Shown here in pieces: positions 4,707-44,242 of a DNA stretch of 44,580 nt. This stretch comes from an uncultured Gemmiger sp. (lineage in GTDB: Bacteria; Bacillota; Clostridia; Oscillospirales; Ruminococcaceae), in assembly GCA_947629015.1 (NCBI GenBank), contig CANRCB010000015.1, positions 1-44,580 on the forward strand, in the 5' to 3' direction. The notes below the pieces were generated by a model that was not told the DNA's origin, searched no databases, and saw only the letters and a program-made list of their open reading frames with translations. The translations under genes and the position numbers were made by a program. Numbering within the stretch: the stretch's first letter is position 1; each line of letters opens with the position of its first letter.

Positions 4707-5183
4707 ACGATGGAAGTTGTAGGGCGGGATGCCCTCATCCCGCCGAAGGGAGGGATGGCGTTATCGGGCCGCCGCGGCGGGCGGCCCCACCGGGGCGCCC
4801 TGCAAAACGCCCGCCCTACAAATCAACCAGGAACGGGATGCCAATGGCGGGGCCCCTCGCCCCGGCCCCTCATCCGGCCGCTGCGCGGCCACCTATCTCC
4901 GGCCTAAGAGCCGGGCCTGCGGCCCGGTTGGCCGTCGAAATGCGCCTGCGGGCGCGATCCCCCAAGGGGGAAGGCTTTAAGGGCGAGATGCCTCGGAAGG
5001 CTTCCCCCTCTGGGGGAAGCTGGCAGCGCCGCAAGGCGCTGACTGATGAGGGGAAAGAGGGATGCCGTTTAAGTGCGGCGGGGTCAAGACCCCGCCCTAC
5101 AAATGGACGGTGCGTTTCTCACCATTTGCGGGCCGATTTTAATCGGCCCCTACGGGGTGGATGGTACGTTTTCCGTATCCTTT

Positions 5184-5468
5184 GTAGGGGGCGGCGTCCT
5201 CGACGCCCCGCAAAATCCGCGCTCTGCCCGCAGTGGCGCACAGCGCGGCGTGAGCGTGGACGGCGCCGCAAGGTGGCGTCCGTCCGGCGAATGGGAGATG
5301 CCACCCGCCCAAGCACCCGGGCGATATCCTGCCTCGGGGGATTCCAAAGGGGGGACCCCCTTTGGTCGTGCGCCGGCCGCGTCGAAATCGGCTGCCCCTT
5401 TCTGGTTCTCTTTCGGGACGAAAGAGAACGGAAAAAACCCAAATCCCGGCAGAAAGCGGCAGCCAACG
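5184..5468 (+). repeat. Core repeat, copy 2
   Basis: Full core starting with GTAG and the GGCGTC/GACGCC hairpin. The second internal hairpin reads TTCTCTTTCG/CGAAAGAGAA, a compensated variant of the TTCCTTTTCG/CGAAAAGGAA stem in copy 1. Confidence 0.85.
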
Positions 5469-9149: not shown

Positions 9150-11651
<2,502 letters not shown>

Positions 11652-11666
11652 GTTCTCACCTTTCAC

Positions 11667-11690
11667 GGGCCGCATATATGCGGCCCCTAC
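11667..11690 (-). repeat. GTAG hairpin (REP-like) in the gyrA leader
   Basis: On the minus strand GTAG followed by the 20-nt perfect palindrome GGGCCGCATATATGCGGCCC. It sits between the transposase stop (11694) and the gyrA ribosome binding site, so any gyrB-gyrA transcript carries this hairpin directly upstream of gyrA. Confidence 0.85.
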
Positions 11691-11693
11691 AAA

Positions 11694-12172
11694 TTATCTC
11701 TTACCTTCTAAAACCCATTTTTGTGGGTTGTTGTCGATATACTGCCAGATCTCGTCGTAGTCCTGCGGCCCGCGTATCACATGGTCGTGGAAGGAGGTTT
11801 GCCAGATCGGGCGCCCGCAGCGGCGTGAAACGCCGGATTTATACAGGCCGACGATTTGGGGGACCGTAGGGCGGGGTCTTGACCCCGCCGTTTCGACCGT
11901 GAGCAAAAAATGCACGTGATCCGGCATGATAACGTACTTTTCTATCACTGCCTGTTCAAAATGCGCCGGGATCTGCAACAATTCTTCCTCGGCGATTTTC
12001 CCATATGGTCTCAGGCACACCGTCGCCCGCACGGCGGGGTCAAGACCCCGCCCTACGATTTTGGAAAGCAGGCGTTCACGGTTTTTGGTGCAGATCGTGA
12101 TAAAATAGCACCCTGCCGTATCATACGCAAACCCGCCCAGGCGCGGGCTTTTCCGTTCGGGGTATTCTTCCA

Positions 12173-12173
<1 letters not shown>
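11694..12173 (-). CDS. REP-associated tyrosine transposase (RAYT, IS200-like Y1 fold)
   Basis: Single-domain Y1 HUH transposase of 159 residues. The usual family landmarks are visible: CYFITICTKNR (22-32), YGKIAEEEL (57-65), the HUH motif in MPDHVHFLL (His86, His88), the tyrosine motif LYKSGVSRR (Tyr111) and a C-terminal IWQTSFHDHVIR...YIDNNPQKW. Such enzymes cut and join single-stranded hairpin DNA and in gammaproteobacteria mobilise REP elements carrying a 5' GTAG. The ATG overlaps the gyrB stop by one base (TGATG), so it is probably translated by coupling. Two REP hairpins lie inside the coding sequence and encode residues 40-47 and 95-103, both in regions that vary in the family, so the frame stays open. 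It could be active or domesticated; all catalytic motifs look intact. Confidence 0.9.
11866..11889 (+). repeat. GTAG hairpin inside the transposase gene (A)
   Basis: GTAG followed by GGCGGGGTC-TT-GACCCCGCC. On the opposite strand it encodes transposase residues 95-103 (TAGSRPRPT), between the HUH motif and the tyrosine motif. Sequence identical to intergenic copies at 23438-23461 and 26145-26168. Confidence 0.9.
12033..12056 (-). repeat. GTAG hairpin inside the transposase gene (B)
   Basis: Same element as at 11866 in inverse orientation, encoding transposase residues 40-47 (VGRGLDPA). The two copies face each other with their GTAG ends outward, 143 bp apart. Confidence 0.9.
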
Positions 12174-14176
<2,003 letters not shown>

Positions 14177-23103: not shown

Positions 23104-23644
23104 GGCAAAAACGGCCGGAGTGGAGCACCGCATCGAGGTGCGTAACGAGAGCCGTTCCGAAATGGGCGGCGCGCGCACGCGCGCCATAAGTGGATATCGG
23201 GCAACCGTTTGCGCCACGGCGGGGTCAAGACCCCGCCCTACAAATGGATGATACGTTTCTTGCCATTTGCGGGCCGCATATATGCGGCCCCTACGGGTAA
23301 AGGATACGTTTTCTTGTATCTCTGTAGGGCCTCGCCCCCACCCCGCCGCAAAAACGAATGACGTTTGCCCTATCACTGTAGGGGGCGGCGTCCTCGACGC
23401 CCCGAACCTTACTGCAAATGTTGTTCCCGGGTGGTTTGTAGGGCGGGGTCTTGACCCCGCCGCAGCGCGGGTTGGCGTTCGCGGGGATACGGAACGTTCA
23501 CGGTCATCCCGTAGGGGCCGATTACAATCGGCCCGCAAAGAGGATGCCGCTTGCGGGGCAGGCGGGGCGTTCCCACAAAATGTGCGGCGGGGGCTTGCCC
23601 CCGCCGCACGGTTTATCCAAAAACGCCATCCCCCTGCGGCAAGG

Positions 23645-33959: not shown

Positions 33960-34147
33960 GGCCCCGCGGCGGGGTCAAGACCCCGCCCTACAAACGGATG
34001 ATACGTTTCTCACTATTTGCGGGCCGATTGTAATCGGCCCCTACGGGGTGGCCGTTATCTTATCCGCCCACTTATGGCGCGCGTGCGCGCGCCGCCCATT
34101 TCGGAACGCCCTCGCTCCGCTTCGCTGCGCTCCGGGACGTTTTTGCC

Positions 34148-36961: not shown

Positions 36962-38128
36962 TCAGGGTGCGTCGAAAAACACGCGCGGGCGGGAAAAATC
37001 AAAGGTCTTTAAAAGCTGCACGATCCTGCCGCTGGTATCCCCGCCGCGGTAGGGGCTGACGGCCTGCCGGGCCCTGGCGGCAAACCCCGGCGAGAGCGCC
37101 TCGCCGATGGCGGCGGCGATGGCGTCGGGGGCGGCGCCGCAGCACAGCACATTTTGGCAGACGGGCCGCCCGACCTGCCGCGCCCCGATGTTGACGGCCG
37201 GCACGCCGAAAGTCGGCGTTTCCACCACGCCGGAGGAGGAGTTGCCCACCACCACGGCCGCGTACCGCAGCGCCGAAAGGTAGCGCCGGGCCCCCAGGCT
37301 TTGCACAAACCCGGCATTTTGCGGGTGTGCGGCGGCAAAGGCGCGCAGCGCCGCCGTGCACGCGGCGCCGCCCTCGTCGGCGTTGGAGCCGGTGCACACC
37401 CAGAACACCGCCGGGAACCGCGCCAGCGCCGCCGTCAGCGCCGCGGCCTGGGCGGCCGGTTCGGGCGCGCCGGCCCCCGTCTCGGGGTGGAAGGTCACAA
37501 GGCCGAACGCGCCGTTTTCCAGCGCCGGCCAGCCGGTGCCCTGCGCCAGCTCGGCGCGGGAAAGCGGCGGCATCGTGCGCAGGTTCTCGTCCCCCAAACC
37601 GCCGACGTTGTACACCGTCTGCGGCGCGGCGCCCATGCGCACAAGGCGCGCGGCGCTTTCGGCGTTGGAGGGGAAGTGCAGCGCCGCCATCTGGCTGATG
37701 CAGTGGCGGTAAAAATCGTCGTCGGCGCCGGCCGTCACGTCCCCGCCCGAGATGTGCGCGATGGGGATGTGCCGCGCGGCGGCCGCCGCCGCCACGGCAA
37801 AGATCTCGAACCGGTCCCCCAGCAGCAGCACGGCGTCCGGCCGGGTGCCGGCAAAATACGCGTCGAACGCCTGCACCGCGCGGGCGATGGCCTGCGCCGT
37901 CGGCTCCGGCGTTTCGGTAAAGACGGCCAGCCGTGCGTCGATGCAGAACGCGATGTCTTCGTCGGCCTCGATCTCACGGACGGTATCGCCCAGCCACGGG
38001 CACAGGTGCGCGCCGGTCACCGCCACGCGCAGCGTGATGCCCGGCTCTGCCGCCAGCTTGCGCAAAACGGGGCGCAGCAGGCCATAGTCGGCCCGGGTCG
38101 AGGTGACGGCGGTGACGGTGCGCGGCAT
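36962..38128 (-). CDS. neuC: UDP-N-acetylglucosamine 2-epimerase (hydrolysing), NeuC/LegG type
   Basis: 388 residues of the WecB/NeuC family. The start TVTAVTSTRADYGLLRPVL is that of NeuC-type enzymes; LLGDRFEIFA, HISGGDVTAG and GNSSSGVVETPTFGVPAVNIG are the substrate-binding motifs. It makes the mannosamine-type sugar used by NeuB. The context with LegC suggests the legionaminic substrate (LegG). AAGGGG lies 7 nt before the ATG. Confidence 0.92.
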   Translation of the reverse strand: MPRTVTAVTSTRADYGLLRPVLRKLAAEPGITLRVAVTGAHLCPWLGDTVREIEADEDIAFCIDARLAVFTETPEPTAQAIARAVQAFDAYFAGTRPDAVLLLGDRFEIFAVAAAAAARHIPIAHISGGDVTAGADDDFYRHCISQMAALHFPSNAESAARLVRMGAAPQTVYNVGGLGDENLRTMPPLSRAELAQGTGWPALENGAFGLVTFHPETGAGAPEPAAQAAALTAALARFPAVFWVCTGSNADEGGAACTAALRAFAAAHPQNAGFVQSLGARRYLSALRYAAVVVGNSSSGVVETPTFGVPAVNIGARQVGRPVCQNVLCCGAAPDAIAAAIGEALSPGFAARARQAVSPYRGGDTSGRIVQLLKTFDFSRPRVFFDAP

Positions 38129-38180
38129 GGCAGGCCCCTTTCTAAAATATACGGAACGTATTATTTGTTATGGATTATAC

Positions 38181-38248
38181 GGAAAGTGGAGAGTGGAAAG
38201 TGGAGAGAAAAAAGAAGAGAGAAAAAAGAAGAGAGAAAAGAGAAGAGA
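38181..38248 (+). repeat. Heptamer tract (GTGGARA)n upstream of neuC
   Basis: Three to four AAGTGGA/GAGTGGA units followed by a long A/G run (GAGAAAAAAGAAGAG repeated). Confidence 0.7.
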
Positions 38249-38387
38249 TGGGGGTTGGGGTGAGATGCCTCGGAAGGCTTCCCCCTCTGGGGGCGGCGGG
38301 GTGAGGGCAAGGCCCTACACGCCGCAGGCGACTGATGAGGGGAAACGGGATGCCGTTTACGGGGCGTCGGGGACGTATATCCCGGTT

Positions 38388-38437
38388 GTAGGGCGGGCCC
38401 TTGGGCCCGCCGCGGCGGGGGCAAGCCCCCGCCCTAC
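38388..38437. repeat. Tail-to-tail pair of GTAG hairpins
   Basis: GTAG + GGCGGGCCC-TT-GGGCCCGCC (38388-38411), a GC dinucleotide, then the inverted element GGCGGGGGC-AA-GCCCCCGCC + CTAC (38414-38437). Same arrangement as 169-218 but with a different second stem that remains paired. Confidence 0.85.
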
Positions 38438-38486
38438 AAATGGGCGGTACGTTTCTCGCAGTTTGCGGGCCGATTGTAATCGGCCC

Positions 38487-38776
38487 CTACGGACGTTCCG
38501 CGGGTGTCTGCAAAACGGCTTGCCGCGCCCTGCCCATAGCGGCGCGCAGCGCGGCATGAGCGTGGACGGCGCCGCAAGGTGGCGTCCGTCCGGCGGACGG
38601 GGGATGGTGCCCGCCCAAACACCCGGGCGATATCCGGCCTCGGGGGATTCCAAAGGGGGGAACCCCCTTTGGTCGTGGGTCCGCTGCATGCGAAACCAGC
38701 GGGACCTTTCTGGTTCTCTTTCGGTCACGAAAGAGAACGGAAAAACCCAAATCCCGGTAAAATGCGGCAGCTAACG
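38487..38776 (+). repeat. Core repeat, copy 8
   Basis: Core with the alternative left arm and a TTCTCTTTCG/CGAAAGAGAA hairpin with loop GTCA, so it mixes features of copies 1 and 2. Confidence 0.85.
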
Positions 38777-39085
38777 GGCCCCGCGGCGGGGCGTCGAGGA
38801 CGCCGCCCCCTACAGTTTGTCCGGGAACGTCATCCACCTGCGGCGGGGTCAAGACCCCGCCCTACAAACGGATGATACGTTTCTCACTATTTGCGGGCCG
38901 ATTGTAATCGGCCCCTACGGGGTGGCCGTTACCTTTGCCGCCCACTTATGGCGCGCGTGCGCGCGCCGCCCATTTCGGAACGGCCCTCGCTCCGCTTCGC
39001 TACGCTGTGCGCCCGCAGGCGCCTGCCGGAGCGCAACCGGGCCAAAGGCCCGGCTCTTAGCGCGGAGGCCCGGGCCGTTTTTGCC

Positions 39086-39121
39086 AAAACAAATTTTTAT
39101 CATTCAATAAAAATTTGTTTT
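39086..39121. repeat. AT-rich 36-nt hairpin, copy 7
   Basis: Left arm AAAACAAATTTTTATC, loop ATTC. Position 4 is an A-T pair (compensated relative to copy 6); one mismatch next to the loop. Confidence 0.8.
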
Positions 39122-39152
39122 GCGCGGCGCATGGCGCCGCGGGCAAAAAACC

Positions 39153-40148
39153 TTACACCTCGATCTTTTCGTCCTCGGCAAAATCGCGCGGGGCGGGGCG
39201 GCCCAGCACCTCGTACCACCGCATGGGGGAGACGCCGTCCCCCGGGCGCTTGGTGGTCAGGTTGTCGGCGGTAAAGGGTTCGCCCTTGCGGATGGCGCGC
39301 GCGGCCACGATGCTCTTGCGGGCCACGGCCTTGTTGGGGGCCTCGCTGCCGGTAACGTGCTTGACGCCGTTGCCCAGCGCCGCCTCGGTGTGGCGCACGG
39401 CCTCGACCAGCGCGCGCAGGCCGGCGGGGTTCAAGCTGGCCTTCTGGTCCGGCCCCGGCCAAGAGCGGTCCAGCGTGAAATGCTTTTCGATGACGCAGGC
39501 TCCCAGCGCTACGGCGGCCGCGGCGCACTCCACGCCCTGCGTGTGGTCGGAAAGGCCCACCGGCAGGCCGAACTGCTCGGCCAGGTCCAGCATGGCGGTC
39601 AGGTTGGCGTCCTCATAGGGGGTGGGGTACTGGGTGTTGCAGTGCAGCACCGTCACGGCGGGGCAGCCGGTGTCGTCCAGAATGCCCAGCGCGTCGGTGA
39701 TCTCATTAAGGGTGCTCATCCCGGTCGAGAGCAGCACCGGCGTGTGCAGCCGCCCCACGGCCTCCAGATAGGGCAGGTTGGTGATCTCGCCCGAGGGGAT
39801 CTTGAGCAGCGGCAGGCCCAGCGTGCCCAAAAATTCCACGCTCGGGATATCGAACGGCGCCGAAAGGTACTGGATGCCGATGGAATCGCAGTATTCTTTC
39901 AGTTCTTTGTGCGCCGCAAAGTCAAAATGCAGCTTGCGGATCATCTCCAGCTGGCTCTCGGCGGCACCGGTGGCCTGCTTCTGGTAGGCGGCCTTTTCGG
40001 CAAAGCGGGAGACGACCAGCTCCGGCACGGCGGTCTGGAATTTGACGATGTCGGCGCCGCAGTCTTTGGCGACGCGGGCCATGGCCTTGGCGGTCTCCAG
40101 GCTGCCGTTGTGGTTGACGCCGGCCTCGGCGATGACGGTGACGGGCAT
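39153..40148 (-). CDS. neuB: Nonulosonic acid synthase (NeuB/LegI)
   Basis: 331 residues. Condenses a mannosamine-type sugar with phosphoenolpyruvate. NeuB start TVIAEAGVNHNGS, then DIVKFQTA, KIPSGEITNLP, LSTGMST, GLSDHT and EKHFTLDRSWPGPDQKAS; the C-terminal ~60 residues form the SAF (antifreeze-like) domain with ARKSIVAARAIRKGEPFTADNL. AGGAGG precedes the ATG. LegI rather than NeuB is inferred from the cluster. Confidence 0.95.
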   Translation of the reverse strand: MPVTVIAEAGVNHNGSLETAKAMARVAKDCGADIVKFQTAVPELVVSRFAEKAAYQKQATGAAESQLEMIRKLHFDFAAHKELKEYCDSIGIQYLSAPFDIPSVEFLGTLGLPLLKIPSGEITNLPYLEAVGRLHTPVLLSTGMSTLNEITDALGILDDTGCPAVTVLHCNTQYPTPYEDANLTAMLDLAEQFGLPVGLSDHTQGVECAAAAVALGACVIEKHFTLDRSWPGPDQKASLNPAGLRALVEAVRHTEAALGNGVKHVTGSEAPNKAVARKSIVAARAIRKGEPFTADNLTTKRPGDGVSPMRWYEVLGRPAPRDFAEDEKIEV

Positions 40149-40173
40149 AGGTGCCTCCTTTGCCCCGCGGGGC

Positions 40174-40850
40174 GGGGAGAGTGGAAAGTGGAGAGAAGAC
40201 GGAAGTTGTAGGGCGGCATGCCCCCATGCCGCCGGAGGGAAGGATGACGTTATCCGGCCGCTGCGCGGCCACCTATCTTCGCGCGGTTGCGCTTCGAAAT
40301 GCGCTTGCGGGCGCGATCCCCCGGAGGGGGAAGGCTTTCAGAGTGAGATAACCCCGCAAGGCTTCCCCTTTTGGGGGAAGCTGTCGCCGAAGGCGACTGA
40401 TGAGGGGAAAGTGGGATGCCGCTTAAGTGCGGCGGGGTCAAGACCCCGCCCTACAGAATGGACGAGACGTTCCTCACGATTTGCGGGCCGCATATATGCG
40501 GCCCCTACGGGATGGATGGTACGTTTCCCGTATCCTTGTAGGGGGCGGCGTCCCCGACGCCCCGCAAAATCCGCGCCCTGGCCGAGCGGCGCGCAGCGCG
40601 GCGTGAGCGTGGACGGCGCCGCAAGGTGGCGTCCGTCCGGCGGACGGGGGATGGTGCCCGCCGAAACACCCGGGCGATATCCAGCCTCGGGGGATTCCAA
40701 AGGGGGGACCCCCTTTGGTCGTGCGCCGGCCGCGTCGAAATCGGCCGGACCTTTTCGGTTCCTTTTCGGTCACGAAAAGGAACGGTAAAAAGTTAAATTC
40801 CGGTAAAAGGCGGCAGCCAACGCCCCGCAAACGGCATCCTGCGGTATAGC
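40174..40850. repeat. Intergenic repeat mosaic J
   Basis: No gene. Short heptamer tract (40177-40199), GTAG hairpin with stem GGCGGCATG (40208-40233), a shortened second-tier element (about 40277-40316), the CTGATGAGGGG unit (about 40353-40408), hairpins at 40431-40454 and 40485-40508 (minus) and core copy 9 (40538-40822). Confidence 0.85.
40538..40822 (+). repeat. Core repeat, copy 9
   Basis: Full-length core with GTAG start and TTCCTTTTCG hairpin. Confidence 0.85.
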
Positions 40851-40876
40851 TCCGCGGCGGCGGGCGTGAACGCTCG

Positions 40877-41929
40877 TTACGGTTCCGGTTCCGCCAGGCG
40901 GCGGCGCATCTTTTCCAGCTCCTCCAGCTGGCCCATGTCCATCCAGCCGGCCTCCCCGATGGGGTACACCCCCACCCGCTCGCCTTTTTGGCGGTACCGC
41001 TCGATCACGTCGGGGAAACCGAGCTTCTCCCCGCCCGGCATCTCCTCCACCACGCGCGGCTCCACCACATACACGCCGGTGTTGGTCAAAAAATCCAGGG
41101 CCGGCTTTTCCCGCATCTGTTTGATGGCGCCGTCCTCCCCGGCCTCCACCACGCCGTAGGGCACGGTGTAGTGCTTGGCCGCCACCACCATCGTCACCAC
41201 GTTGCGGCGGCGCTTGTGGTACTCATACAAGGCGGCAAAATCAAGGTCCAAAAGCGTGTCACAGTTGGTAAAAAAGAAGGGCCTGTCCACCTTGCCCTTG
41301 AGCAGGCACAGCCCGCCGCCGGTGCCCATAAAGGTCTCCTCGTCGATGAAGCTGACGGTATAGTCCTTCTCAAGGTCGGAAAAATAGGACTTTATCATGT
41401 TTTTTTTGTAGTTGACGATGAGGCGGAAATCCTTGCAGCCAAAGGTGTGGAACCGGTCGATGATGAGCTCGGCGATGGGCTGCTCCCCCACCGGGATGAG
41501 GGGCTTGGGCAGGATCTTGGTGTAGGGGTACAGCCGCGTGCCAAGGCCGCCGGCCATCATCACCACCGGCAGGTCCAGCCCGCCGCGGGCGGGCACGCCG
41601 CGGCGGCGGGCAAAGGCGATGTCCACCACGCGGCCGTCCTCGCCCAAAAGCGGCAGCGCGTCGATGCCGCGCGCCGACAGCACCTCCCGCGCGGCGCCGC
41701 GCTCCGCCACCGGCAGGCTGATGGGGCGGTAGTTGGCGGCCTTTTGCACGGGGTCGCCCAGCGCGCCGCCGCGCAAAAGGAATTTGCGGATGTCGCCGTC
41801 CGTCACAACGGCGCGCAAAATGCCCCCCGGCGCCACGAACAGAATGCGCTCGCCCGTTTCGTCGAGCTTTTGCATCGTGTCGCGCACGGTGGTGGTCTCC
41901 TCGATCAAAAACGCATGCAGGTCGGGCAT
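40877..41929 (-). CDS. ptmE: PtmE-like sugar nucleotidyltransferase with N-terminal CBS pair
   Basis: 350 residues. N-terminal CBS pair (about 1-115), then a nucleotidyltransferase domain starting VVMMAGGLGTRLYPYTKILPKP with the GxGTRxxPxTxxxPKP signature, and FTNCDTLLDLD for metal binding. This is the layout of PtmE, the glucosamine-1-phosphate guanylyltransferase that supplies GDP-sugar for legionaminic acid in Campylobacter. GGAGG lies just before the ATG, 14 nt after the legC stop. Confidence 0.85.
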   Translation of the reverse strand: MPDLHAFLIEETTTVRDTMQKLDETGERILFVAPGGILRAVVTDGDIRKFLLRGGALGDPVQKAANYRPISLPVAERGAAREVLSARGIDALPLLGEDGRVVDIAFARRRGVPARGGLDLPVVMMAGGLGTRLYPYTKILPKPLIPVGEQPIAELIIDRFHTFGCKDFRLIVNYKKNMIKSYFSDLEKDYTVSFIDEETFMGTGGGLCLLKGKVDRPFFFTNCDTLLDLDFAALYEYHKRRRNVVTMVVAAKHYTVPYGVVEAGEDGAIKQMREKPALDFLTNTGVYVVEPRVVEEMPGGEKLGFPDVIERYRQKGERVGVYPIGEAGWMDMGQLEELEKMRRRLAEPEP

Positions 41930-41943
41930 GGGAACCTCCGCAG

Positions 41944-43110
41944 TTACAAGCTCAGCACCGCCTGGATCACGCGGTCACAGTCGGTTTCGGTCAGGTTGGT
42001 GGAGCAGGGCAGGTTGACGATGCGGGCGCGGTAATCCCGCGCTTTGTCCAGGCCGAGGGCCTCGTTTTTGCCGTAGTCCGCCTGTTCGTGCACCAGCGCC
42101 CACACCGGGCGCGTCTGGATGCCCTGCGCCTGCAGGGCGGCGATGACGGCGTCGCGCGCAAGGCCGCTTTCGGGGCCAAGATACAGGCTGAAGAACCAGT
42201 AGTTGGGGCGGGTGGAGCTTTCGTCGAACGGCAGCACGCGCAGCCCGCGCACGCCGTCCAGCGCGGCGCGGTACTGTGCGTAGCGCGCCTTCTTGGCGGC
42301 GATGAACCCTTCCAGCCGTTCCAGCTGGGCAAGGCCCAGGCACGCCTGCACGTTGGTCATGCGGTAGTTGTAGCCGACCTCATCGTGCAAAAATTGCAGC
42401 TCGTCCGCCTTGGCCTGGGTGGAAAGGTGCTTGGCGTGCTGCGCCCAGTCGGCGTGGTTGGAGACGAGCATCCCCCCCGCGCCGGTGGTGATGATCTTGT
42501 TGCCGTTGAAGCTGTAGCAGCCGATGTCGCCCATCGTGCCGGCGTACCGCCCGGCCAGCGGCCCGGCGGTGTAGCGGGTGCCCAGGGCCTCGGTCGCGTC
42601 CTCGATGAGGGTAAGGTGATAGCGCCTGGCGATGTCCAGCAGGCGCGGCATATCGGCCATGGCGCCGAACACGTGCACCACGGCGAGCGCCGCCACCCGC
42701 GCGCCGGTCTTTTTGTTGTAGAGGGCGCCGCCGCGCAGCGTGCAGCGGTTTTGGCAGAAATCCTCCACGGCGTCGGGGTCGATGCAAAGGCTGTCATCAC
42801 AGCCGATGAACACCGGCTCGGCGCCGACGTAGCGCGTCAGCGGGTTGACGGCGGCGATAAAGGTCAGCGTCGGCACGATGACCTCGGTGCCCGGGCCAAG
42901 GCCGGCGGCCATGGCGGCCAGGTGCAGGGCGCTGGAGCCGCTGTTGGCGGCCACGGCGCGCGGCATACCGACATACGCGGCGATGGCCTGCTCAAACTCG
43001 CCCACCTTGGCGCCGCTGGTGGACACCCACCCGCTGGTGATGGCCTCGAGCGCGAGCTCGGCCTCACGCGCGCCGAAATTGGGCACCGACAACGGGATAA
43101 AACCAGCCAT
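41944..43110 (-). CDS. legC: LegC-type PLP aminotransferase (DegT/DnrJ/EryC1 family)
   Basis: 388 residues from the ATG at 43110 (MAGFIPLSVPNFG, a LegC-like start). NSGSSALHLA for cofactor binding, EDATEALGT and the FNGNKIITTGAGGM motif with the PLP lysine are present. It would transaminate the 4-keto sugar nucleotide on the way to legionaminic acid. First gene of the cluster after a good promoter. The matching dehydratase (LegB) and acetyltransferase (LegH) genes are not in the window. Confidence 0.9.
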   Translation of the reverse strand: MAGFIPLSVPNFGAREAELALEAITSGWVSTSGAKVGEFEQAIAAYVGMPRAVAANSGSSALHLAAMAAGLGPGTEVIVPTLTFIAAVNPLTRYVGAEPVFIGCDDSLCIDPDAVEDFCQNRCTLRGGALYNKKTGARVAALAVVHVFGAMADMPRLLDIARRYHLTLIEDATEALGTRYTAGPLAGRYAGTMGDIGCYSFNGNKIITTGAGGMLVSNHADWAQHAKHLSTQAKADELQFLHDEVGYNYRMTNVQACLGLAQLERLEGFIAAKKARYAQYRAALDGVRGLRVLPFDESSTRPNYWFFSLYLGPESGLARDAVIAALQAQGIQTRPVWALVHEQADYGKNEALGLDKARDYRARIVNLPCSTNLTETDCDRVIQAVLSL

Positions 43111-43150
43111 AACATTCCCCCGCCATTTGCAGAAATTTATACATATTTGT

Positions 43151-43179
43151 ATTATACGCGCTTTGCCCCCAAACGGCAA
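43151..43179 (-). promoter_or_regulatory. Promoter of the nonulosonic acid cluster
   Basis: On the minus strand -35 TTGCCG (43179-43174), 17-bp spacer, -10 TATAAT (43156-43151), about 40 bp before legC. Given the long repeats between later genes, read-through to neuA may be weak unless internal promoters exist. Confidence 0.75.
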
Positions 43180-43183
43180 GAAC

Positions 43184-43215
43184 AAAAAAACCGCGCGCCG
43201 CCAAAACGGCGCGCG
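43184..43215 (-). terminator. Intrinsic terminator of the AhpC-like gene
   Basis: 9-bp stem CGCGCGCCG / CGGCGCGCG, 6-nt loop, followed by seven T on the minus strand, just upstream of the legC promoter. Confidence 0.88.
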
Positions 43216-43342
43216 CCGGTGTGCCAGATCCGCCCGTTTTCGGGAGGCGATCTCCAAAAACATTTGCAGGGGCGCCCTGCGATGCGGCCCCTGCAGTGTT
43301 CCTGTCAGGGTCAAGCAGTTTTTTCTGTTTTGCGGCAGGCTC

Positions 43343-44242
43343 TCAGGGCTGTTGGGGCGGCCCGGGGTCATACCGGCGGGTGGCGGGGCGGTGCCGGATG
43401 GTGCGGCGGGCCGGCACGGCGGCGGCCGCGGGGGCCACCGGCGCGCGCCCGGCGCCGGGCGCGGCGGGCGGCAGCTTAAAGGTGCCGGAATCCGTCAGGT
43501 AGCCCGGCAGCTCAGGGGCAAGGTCCTCCAGCGGCAGGCCTTGGGTAAGGGTGTCGGCCGGGTCGGTCATGCGGCCGCGGGCGGCGTCGGGCGCCGCCTC
43601 GGCGAACAGATCCCCAAAAGGGCCGTCCGGGTCGGGCAGGGGGTCGGGTGCGGGCGCAGGGGCCGGCGGCGCGGCCGGGGCGTCCGGCGCGCGGTCCAGC
43701 CCCAGCACGCCCAAAAGCTGCTGCATGGCGGCGCAGTCCTCCGGCACGTCGGTCAGGCTGGCGCCGTAATGTGCAAACAGCACGGTGCCGTCGGCGTCCA
43801 AAATCAGTGTCAGCGGCAGCTGCTGCAAAGCGTTTTTGGGCGGGTGGTAGCCCTGGCGGCGTGCCTCCCGCAGGATGCGCCAGCCCTCCAGCGAATAGGT
43901 CGTCAGCGTGCCGCTGCGCTCCGGGATGGCCAAAAGGTCGTACAGGGTGCCCTCGGCGTCACACAAAAGCGGGAAGGGCAGCGTGTCCGGCCCGACGATG
44001 CCGGCCAGCTTTTCCGGCACCGAGCGCACCACCAGCGCCAGGCTGCCGCTTTTCAGCGCGGGGAAGGTGCCGGCGTACCGCTCCACGAAGGTGCGCGTGA
44101 CGGGGTGGCCGAAATTGCTCAAAAACACGAGGATGAGCGGCGGGTGCGCGGCCAGCAGCACGCGGGAACGCTCCTGCGCGCTGTAGGGGGTATCGTACCG
44201 GAAAAAGGGCAGCCTTTCGCCTTCTTTGATGCGCTGCGGCAA
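43343..44242 (-). CDS. AhpC/thioredoxin-fold protein lacking the usual cysteines
   Basis: 299 residues from a TTG start at 44242, which has AAGGGGGG 8 nt upstream; the frame is open further but that part is repeat sequence. The N-terminal ~175 residues look like an AhpC/TSA (redoxin) domain: IKEGERLPFFRYDTPY, LILVFLSNFGHPVTRTFV and FPLLCDAEGTLYDLL. The peroxidatic cysteine site reads FGHPVT, so neither cysteine is present. The C-terminal ~120 residues are Pro/Ala/Asp-rich and low-complexity. Function unknown. It ends before a terminator and is probably not part of the sugar operon. Confidence 0.7.
   Translation of the reverse strand: MPQRIKEGERLPFFRYDTPYSAQERSRVLLAAHPPLILVFLSNFGHPVTRTFVERYAGTFPALKSGSLALVVRSVPEKLAGIVGPDTLPFPLLCDAEGTLYDLLAIPERSGTLTTYSLEGWRILREARRQGYHPPKNALQQLPLTLILDADGTVLFAHYGASLTDVPEDCAAMQQLLGVLGLDRAPDAPAAPPAPAPAPDPLPDPDGPFGDLFAEAAPDAARGRMTDPADTLTQGLPLEDLAPELPGYLTDSGTFKLPPAAPGAGRAPVAPAAAAVPARRTIRHRPATRRYDPGPPQQP

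Follow-up and report, generated by a model that had tools for sequence, protein, structure and literature searches.

We analyzed a 44.6-kb stretch of DNA from an uncultured Gemmiger sp. (contig CANRCB010000015.1; 44,580 nt, referred to as the window, with G000 for the genome it belongs to), in which a gene for a 159-aa REP-associated tyrosine transposase (RAYT, or TnpAREP) is located between gyrB and gyrA. The reading frame of this gene contains two hairpins of the repetitive extragenic palindromic (REP) type, here called A and B, which are the subject of this analysis. An earlier note on this DNA had described them as GTAG hairpins in opposite orientation at residues 40-47 and 95-103, and this was confirmed: A and B are identical over 24 nt and form a perfect inverted repeat over 27 nt (Table 1). 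The hairpins are not a product of chance, because a loose hairpin pattern matches 17 times in the window with 0.55 matches expected from shuffles, and the exact sequence GTAGGGCGGGGTCTTGACCCCGCC is found 50 times genome-wide, A and B included and 12 of them within the window, with no match to the reversed pattern. With this copy number the statement that these are the enzyme's own elements is borne out as far as their spread is concerned. In the predicted structure of the protein, strands 37-40 and 51-54 enclose A, while B follows the HUH strand (86-93) and precedes helix 104-119, so that the loop location proposed for them holds as well.

Table 1. Coordinates of the features discussed in the text (positions in the window).
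Feature	Position	Strand	Remarks
In-gene REP site A	12033..12056	-	GTAGGGCGGGGTCTTGACCCCGCC, sense; GTAG foot at codon boundary; residues 40-47 (VGRGLDPA)
In-gene REP site B	11866..11889	+	GTAGGGCGGGGTCTTGACCCCGCC, antisense; residues 95-103 (TAGSRPRPT over whole codons)
Segment bounded by A and B	11862..12060	-	Single-strand fold
RAYT / TnpAREP gene	11694..12173	-	159 aa; ATG 12173-12171, stop 11696-11694
Third hairpin	11667..11690	-	Different REP type, GTAGGGGCCGCATATATGCGGCCC; between RAYT stop and likely gyrA ribosome binding site
gyrB, upstream neighbour	12173..14146	-	Stop overlaps RAYT start (TGATG); NCBIfam TIGR01059, 930 bits
gyrA, downstream neighbour	9150..11675	-	Longest open reading frame from first ATG; NCBIfam TIGR01063, 1076 bits
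Composite REP units	195-271, 5077-5153, 23218-23294, 33968-34044, 38842-38918, 40431-40508

Judged by its motifs and profile matches, the protein is a class-2 Y1 HUH transposase of the TnpAREP/RAYT kind. The HVH motif noted before is intact (H86-V-H88; neither histidine varies among 48 aligned sequences), which supports the identification, whereas the YKS motif (Y111-K112-S113) noted with it is not the catalytic one: only K112 is invariant, and the alignments to PDB 4er8 and among the 48 sequences place the catalytic tyrosine at Y145 in the context Y145-IDN-N149-P150 (Y-xxx-NP). This is the context of class 2, while class 1 has Y-xxx-Q. The W-Q...D-H..R region is present (W124, Q125, D130, H131, R134), with Q125 and H131 conserved at 90% or more and R134 invariant in the same alignment, and by analogy with E. 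coli W124-Q125...H131...R134 is the predicted GTAG-recognition region. The protein matches NF047646 REP_Tyr_transpos (NCBIfam) with E 5.1e-18 and 65.3 bits, below the curated cut-off of 80, Pfam Y1_Tnp with 23.2 bits, barely at its own cut-off of 23, and PDB 4er8, in which the E. coli RAYT is seen together with a REP hairpin, in a profile search with E 2.3e-14. A Foldseek comparison of the predicted model (pLDDT 91.2) with 4er8 gave E 3.2e-07 and TM 0.64, at rank 2 behind ISDra2 TnpA. Membership in IS200/IS605 was considered and rejected (NF033573, 21.2 bits against a cut-off of 55; Y-xxx-N and not Y-xxx-Q). The dN/dS ratio is 0.10-0.25 in 7 of 12 RAYT pairs, those with dS below 1, and thus the protein is under purifying selection. 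Searches of phage and plasmid sequences returned one and four records, respectively; a RAYT with 51% identity to the 159-aa protein is encoded in MT839559.1 (115-597), a 4.8-kb "Bacteriophage sp." record from human faecal samples.

Homologues were searched in 100 genomes, the own genome included, and were present in 27 of them; among the 26 RAYT genes read from these, 17 carry a hairpin at both sites, with varying sequences. A second sample comprised 80 named loci, the best 80 of 494 confirmed relatives, whose titles are mostly Oscillospiraceae and other Clostridia with few from other phyla. Here A is present in 51, B in 59 and both in 47 loci, figures that lean high, as the query alignment was rich in hairpin-bearing genes. 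One of these loci, L124, was brought in by another gene (4767-5393) than the one analyzed (13002-13487), and the two agree in the remaining 79. Addition of 15 of the 26 RAYTs gave a set of 95 genes with inflated prevalence, since all 15 had both hairpins called, and restoring the 11 dropped genes gave 106 genes (A in 71, B in 78, both in 64). The hairpin finder demands GTAG and a near-perfect palindrome, which hides uncompensated stem changes.

Both the sites and the orientations turned out to be fixed. Among the 80 named loci no antisense hairpin was found at A and a sense hairpin in the B region in only three (L137, L138, L141), where it overlaps the antisense one in two of the three. Synonymous-codon shuffles of the 95 genes yielded a mean of 0.65 calls at A and 1.5 at B, versus 66 and 74 observed. 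In the 62 genes with both hairpins the interior between A and B consists of 108-194 nt of coding sequence, and GTAGGG is found in 61 of them at each site, which adds little because GTAG is demanded by the finder. When the palindrome demand was dropped for the 16 one-hairpin genes, a partner of the same type appeared in L075, L083, L101 and L119 and a weaker one in L121, and none was detected in the other 11.

These findings bear on the inference drawn in the earlier note, namely that recent, independent jumps carried REPs of the genome into its own RAYT gene as tolerated insertions. In-frame intragenic REPs do occur in many unrelated genes, according to the accessible part of PMC3733652. However, dozens of genomes share sites and orientations, the orthologues in the gyrB-gyrA spacer already carry the hairpins, and distant homologues with differing REPs have them at the same sites in the same orientations and change A and B together. 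Fresh jumps into tolerated loops were rejected on these grounds, and such an origin appears highly improbable. The case named beforehand as speaking against that inference, homologues in genomes without any REPs, was approached but not reached in two genomes, G125 and G112, where the in-gene type was found only within the gene; other REP types are present there.

A and B change in lockstep. In the 47 named loci with both hairpins, which comprise 35 distinct A sequences, the A-B edit distance is 1.04 within genes and 8.37 between genes, and the lowest of 5000 permutations reached 6.9. The change at A correlates with the change at B when the 80 named loci are compared in 23 disjoint nearest pairs (Spearman 0.92), and likewise for the 95 genes in 31 pairs (0.90), with three of the 31 out of step. 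Gene pairs with at least 70% core identity have an identical A in 14 of 14 and an identical B in 9 of 14 cases. Identical hairpins also occur in the distant pair L066 and L073, which share 44% of their core residues and the same base at 45% of 20 fourfold sites, with hairpins identical at 48 of 48 nt. As A and B encode different and unrelated peptides (VGRGLDPA and TAGSRPRPT), a shared constraint on the DNA has to be assumed, and selection on the protein is not readily the cause of the lockstep. The view that the encoded peptides (VG..., ...PT) alone maintain the two segments has one argument in its favor, as the homologues L113, L114 and L131, which have no hairpin, retain VGA...-like peptides at A. 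The peptides at both sites vary widely, though, whereas the stems remain palindromic at the DNA level even in genes whose fourfold sites outside the hairpins are scrambled, so that we give this explanation hardly any credence. Taken from the sequence comparison, the pattern suggests that the gene makes use of the hairpins and that they are not mere chance insertions.

The main rival is an account without any function, in which REPs once entered two tolerant loops and the copies are kept alike by gene conversion, by overwriting from dispersed copies or by template switching. The predicted loop positions of A and B are compatible with it, as is the reading of Quentin et al. (2018; PMC6006769, accessible part), who regard in-gene REPs as peripheral and tolerated. 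Furthermore, differences between A and B are often found at a loop position that is T or C in the dispersed copies too, and there the in-gene types of G107 and G104 agree with dispersed variants. Overall, A and B differ at 37 of 167 loop sites versus 28 of 516 stem sites, a contrast of little weight because the finder hides uncompensated stem changes. Overwriting by hairpins of 22 to 26 nt would, however, be expected to disrupt the frame in many cases, whereas A starts at codon phase 0 in 50 of 51 genes. The account also leaves unexplained the fixed orientation and the side-specific flanking hairpins described below, and it is at odds with in-gene types of which no copy was found elsewhere in the genome: in G112, two of the 10 matches to one degenerate pattern are of the in-gene type and both lie in the gene, and the type of G125 was found only inside the gene with up to 3 mismatches allowed. 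We consider this functionless account unlikely, but it has to be taken seriously.

A different role would be one in the mRNA, with A and B pairing, or folding singly, and thereby setting stability or translation of the RAYT message without any recognition by the enzyme. The best fold of the single-stranded segment from A to B is indeed one long A:B stem (DNA z -8.6), and its RNA reaches -109.9 kcal/mol with the full A:B stem, far more stable than shuffles (z -9.0). Any inverted REP pair yields such a fold, though, and the in-gene type tracks the genomic REP family within the genus. Asymmetries such as the G-T mismatch of GTAGGGCGGGGGCTTGCTCCCGCC, the in-gene type of G125, moreover keep the same REP orientation at A and B though B is antisense to the message. 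A pure mRNA role therefore seems improbable.

The relation to the dispersed REPs was followed in the 35 genomes of the genus, many genomes being incomplete assemblies. In all seven genus RAYTs of the gyrB-gyrA spacer that have an in-gene hairpin, its type is that of the genomic REPs. The in-gene type is AGGGG in G006 and G028 and CGGGG in G000, G013, G021, G023 and G027. AGGGG copies number 77 in G006, 16 in G028 and 3 in G017, with none in G000, G013, G021, G023 and G027, whereas CGGGG occurs in 14 of the 35 genomes, with 50 copies in G000, 37 in G013, 7 in G021, 21 in G023 and 19 in G027, and with 1 and 0 copies in G006 and G028; the counts of spacer-RAYT genomes include the in-gene copies. 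G034 and G004 have CGGGG copies and no RAYT in the spacer. Over 40 genomes, wider pattern classes give between 0 and at least 152 matches each, most of them not sorted by type. Copies of the own type within 10 kb were found beside only 9 of 47 genes. The spacer locus of G023 (L158) has a triplicated A segment without a called in-gene B; the A-type hairpin recurs there three times in 120-nt steps with another REP variant in between. The own genome encodes a second RAYT (L036, G000:C17:10144-10596) with its own in-gene pair, GTAGGGCGGGGTGCCCYCACCCCGCC, and this type has 16 exact genomic copies, the in-gene ones included.

Genes that lack A or B were compared for hairpins in their flanks, and the association was recomputed on the 80 named loci alone and on the 106 genes, the lockstep on the 80. 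In the 80 loci a sense hairpin is located upstream of 11 of the 29 genes without A versus 2 of the 51 with A (p 1.5e-4), and an antisense hairpin downstream of 11 of the 21 genes without B versus 3 of the 59 with B (p 7.9e-6); the upstream control with the wrong orientation gave 7 of 29 versus 7 of 51 (p 0.36). A sense-upstream plus antisense-downstream pair within 300 nt is present in 1 of 62 genes with both in-gene hairpins versus 6 of 17 with neither. Five loci (L070, L072, L085, L087, L102) combine an in-gene B with a matching sense hairpin upstream. L124 has neither A nor B but has GTAGGGCGGGGGCTTGCTCCCGCC on either side at a distance of about 70 nt, in sense orientation upstream and in antisense orientation downstream, and the three other members of its clade (SH-aLRT 97) carry GTAGGGCGGGGGCTTGCTCCCGCC at A and B.

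The reading we prefer, on the strength of these comparisons and with a probability of only about 0.53, is that the inverted cognate REP pair usually found on either side of a RAYT gene is contained here in its reading frame and acts in cis. The lineage would tend to keep one inverted cognate hairpin pair in cis, in most members examined inside the reading frame, with A on the coding strand ahead of the HUH motif and B on the template strand, past the HUH motif but before the codon of the catalytic tyrosine. The pair would be retained since the enzyme recognises the hairpins of its own gene in cis, on single-stranded DNA. Its role could be either autoregulation, by which the RAYT limits its own expression, or that of a resident template from which the REP family is renewed. 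It is unlikely that the pair represents the ends of a mobile RAYT element because hairpins at codons 40 and 103 cannot bound the complete gene, and therefore a cis-acting site of the regulatory or template kind is the likelier role.

Several observations weigh against this reading. The coupling of in-gene and dispersed copies has exceptions: CGGGG copies are present in G014 and G020, whose spacer RAYTs are without an in-gene hairpin, and the confinement of the G125 type to the gene counts here as well, as the 20 near copies elsewhere in that genome are mostly the compensated variant CGGTGG..CTGCCGCC and one RAYT was found there. The downstream control with the wrong orientation is also raised (7 of 21 versus 5 of 59, p 0.011). 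Furthermore, in the set of 95 a sense-antisense pair of the same type, within the gene and 300 nt on either side, is present in only 11 of the 33 genes lacking the full in-gene pair (5 of 12 with B only, 2 of 4 with A only and 4 of 17 with neither), and in 11 of the 17 genes with neither, that range contains no sense-antisense pair at all, whatever the type. Since the flanks complete the pair in only a third of the incomplete genes, we lowered the probability of a cis-acting pair from 0.55 to the value given and slightly raised that of gene conversion. Under phylogenetic control the association is not significant, with 4 and 6 supported independent pairs, and its direction holds (2.0 to 0.1 and 3.8 to 0.1; controls 0.6 to 0.2 and 2.2 to 0.5). 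Finally, the interiors of eight dispersed REP pairs in G122 and G126 are not derived from a RAYT interior, and there is thus no sign of the whole A-B segment being copied out; the idea that such pairs are copies of this segment was rejected (8 interiors against 3 RAYT interiors, best 12-nt match E 0.66). The dispersed pairs themselves (L175-L181 and L186) enclose 76-90 nt in a REPIN-like unit, and several hold an inner palindrome similar to ATGCGAAGCA...TGCTTCGCA.

A further idea, which we put forward tentatively and with the odds against it, is that the in-gene pair is a portable, self-encoded substrate, so that a RAYT entering a new host brings along its REP pair and can start a new REP family. 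The gene-only types of G125 and G112 are consistent with this without proving it. The same holds for GTAGGGCGGGGGCTTGCTCCCGCC, which is dispersed in five other genomes whose RAYTs share as little as 44% of core residues with that of G125, and for the genes L070 and L072, titled Clostridia and Chloroflexi, respectively, which are identical at B and share 48% of core residues. If true, the specificity of the enzyme and its template would travel and evolve as one coding unit. More generally, the inverted REPs around RAYTs could be termini of a mobile unit, act as a regulatory site or be the template from which REPs spread. The family with the pair in the reading frame helps to tell these roles apart, since hairpins inside the gene cannot carry it as a whole. 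This family may also provide dozens of natural enzyme-hairpin pairs with matching specificity in one gene, a candidate resource for the recognition code.

The gyrB-gyrA site was compared in 29 genus loci with gyrB, one of which (L151) ends before gyrA. A RAYT is located in the spacer of 10 of the 29 and a remnant in one more; close relatives have no RAYT there, and spacers without it (among L147-L173) measure up to 676 nt and often hold other sequence, partly common to several species. The spacer RAYTs of G000, G006, G013, G021, G027 and G028 form one supported clade in a phylogeny of 144 columns with many unresolved forks, from which those of G014, G020 and G023 were left out, and the spacer RAYT of G017 is a distant one with outside hairpins. 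In the spacer RAYT of G021 (L037) the HUH motif reads HLQ instead of HLH in an open frame, and this enzyme may be inactive. Another RAYT of G028 is identical to that of a Gemmiger formicilis record, and the genus compared here is thus probably Gemmiger. On the gyrB tree, the presence of the RAYT needs six changes. This would fit a RAYT that entered the site early in the genus and was lost several times, and a second entry is possible. The start of the RAYT within the gyrB stop (TGATG) was described correctly in the earlier note, but it is found in the own genome only, as the RAYTs of relatives start 26-275 nt after gyrB, and the overlap was rejected as a general feature. Of the proposed persistence through the gyrase operon, the old-looking spacer position remains, while the unshared overlap and the close relatives without the gene speak against it, and the comparison of the genus loci gave no sign that the position of the RAYT regulates gyrase.

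The third hairpin reported earlier is indeed present ahead of gyrA, but it is not of the in-gene type; by inspection, the true start of gyrA is likely a later ATG near 11651. The REP type of this hairpin also takes part in composite units recurring through the window, in which two REP types in the same orientation lie about 29 nt apart, either GTAGGGGCCGATTA(C/A)AATCGGCCC or GTAGGGGCCGCATATATGCGGCCC beside a RAYT-type REP. RAYT-type REPs are also located between the genes for nonulosonic (sialic or legionaminic) acid at 36962-43371 (NeuC-, NeuB- and LegC-like).

By its sequence, the RAYT is a class-2 TnpAREP of the subclass 2.4 kind, to which PMC6006769 assigns RAYT group 4 of Bertels 2017 and for which in-frame REPs within tnpAREP genes have already been published (Quentin et al., 2018). 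As far as the accessible part of that paper goes, it shares with this subclass the Y-xxx-NP enzyme, GTAG-type REPs and the in-frame in-gene REPs. In the predicted model it also shares the variable segment between beta3 and alphaC, which corresponds to B if strand 86-93 and helix 104-119 are taken as these elements, and the lack of a C-terminal extension of the core domain, the last helix spanning 135-156 of 159 residues. The 8-aa insertion at the end of alphaB given there for subclass 2.4 could not be mapped to A. New relative to published work are the fixed sites and orientation of A and B, the lockstep, the REP-type match in the genus and the side-specific flanking association; in the literature covered, which lay outside preprints, most subscription papers and the supplement of PMC6006769, no account of two fixed opposite sites, lockstep or flanking association was found. 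In the REPtron, two cognate inverted REPs likewise accompany the RAYT, and RAYT genes are stated to be always flanked by two inverted REPs (Nunvar et al., 2010; PMC2817692, accessible part). The 159-aa RAYT has no such flanking pair: here the pair lies inside the open reading frame, only a different REP type is present downstream, and the published view of the two REPs as termini does not agree with hairpins located within the gene. With the REPIN, as described in the accessible part of PMC3116915, the A-B segment has in common an inverted REP pair that can fold into one long hairpin, but its interior is RAYT coding sequence, in contrast to the shorter, unrelated interiors of the dispersed pairs in two relatives. 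Finally, the Rickettsia palindromic elements, as presented in the accessible part of PMC3733652, also encode part of a protein, but they are CGTC-tagged, reside in unrelated host genes and are without a dedicated transposase.
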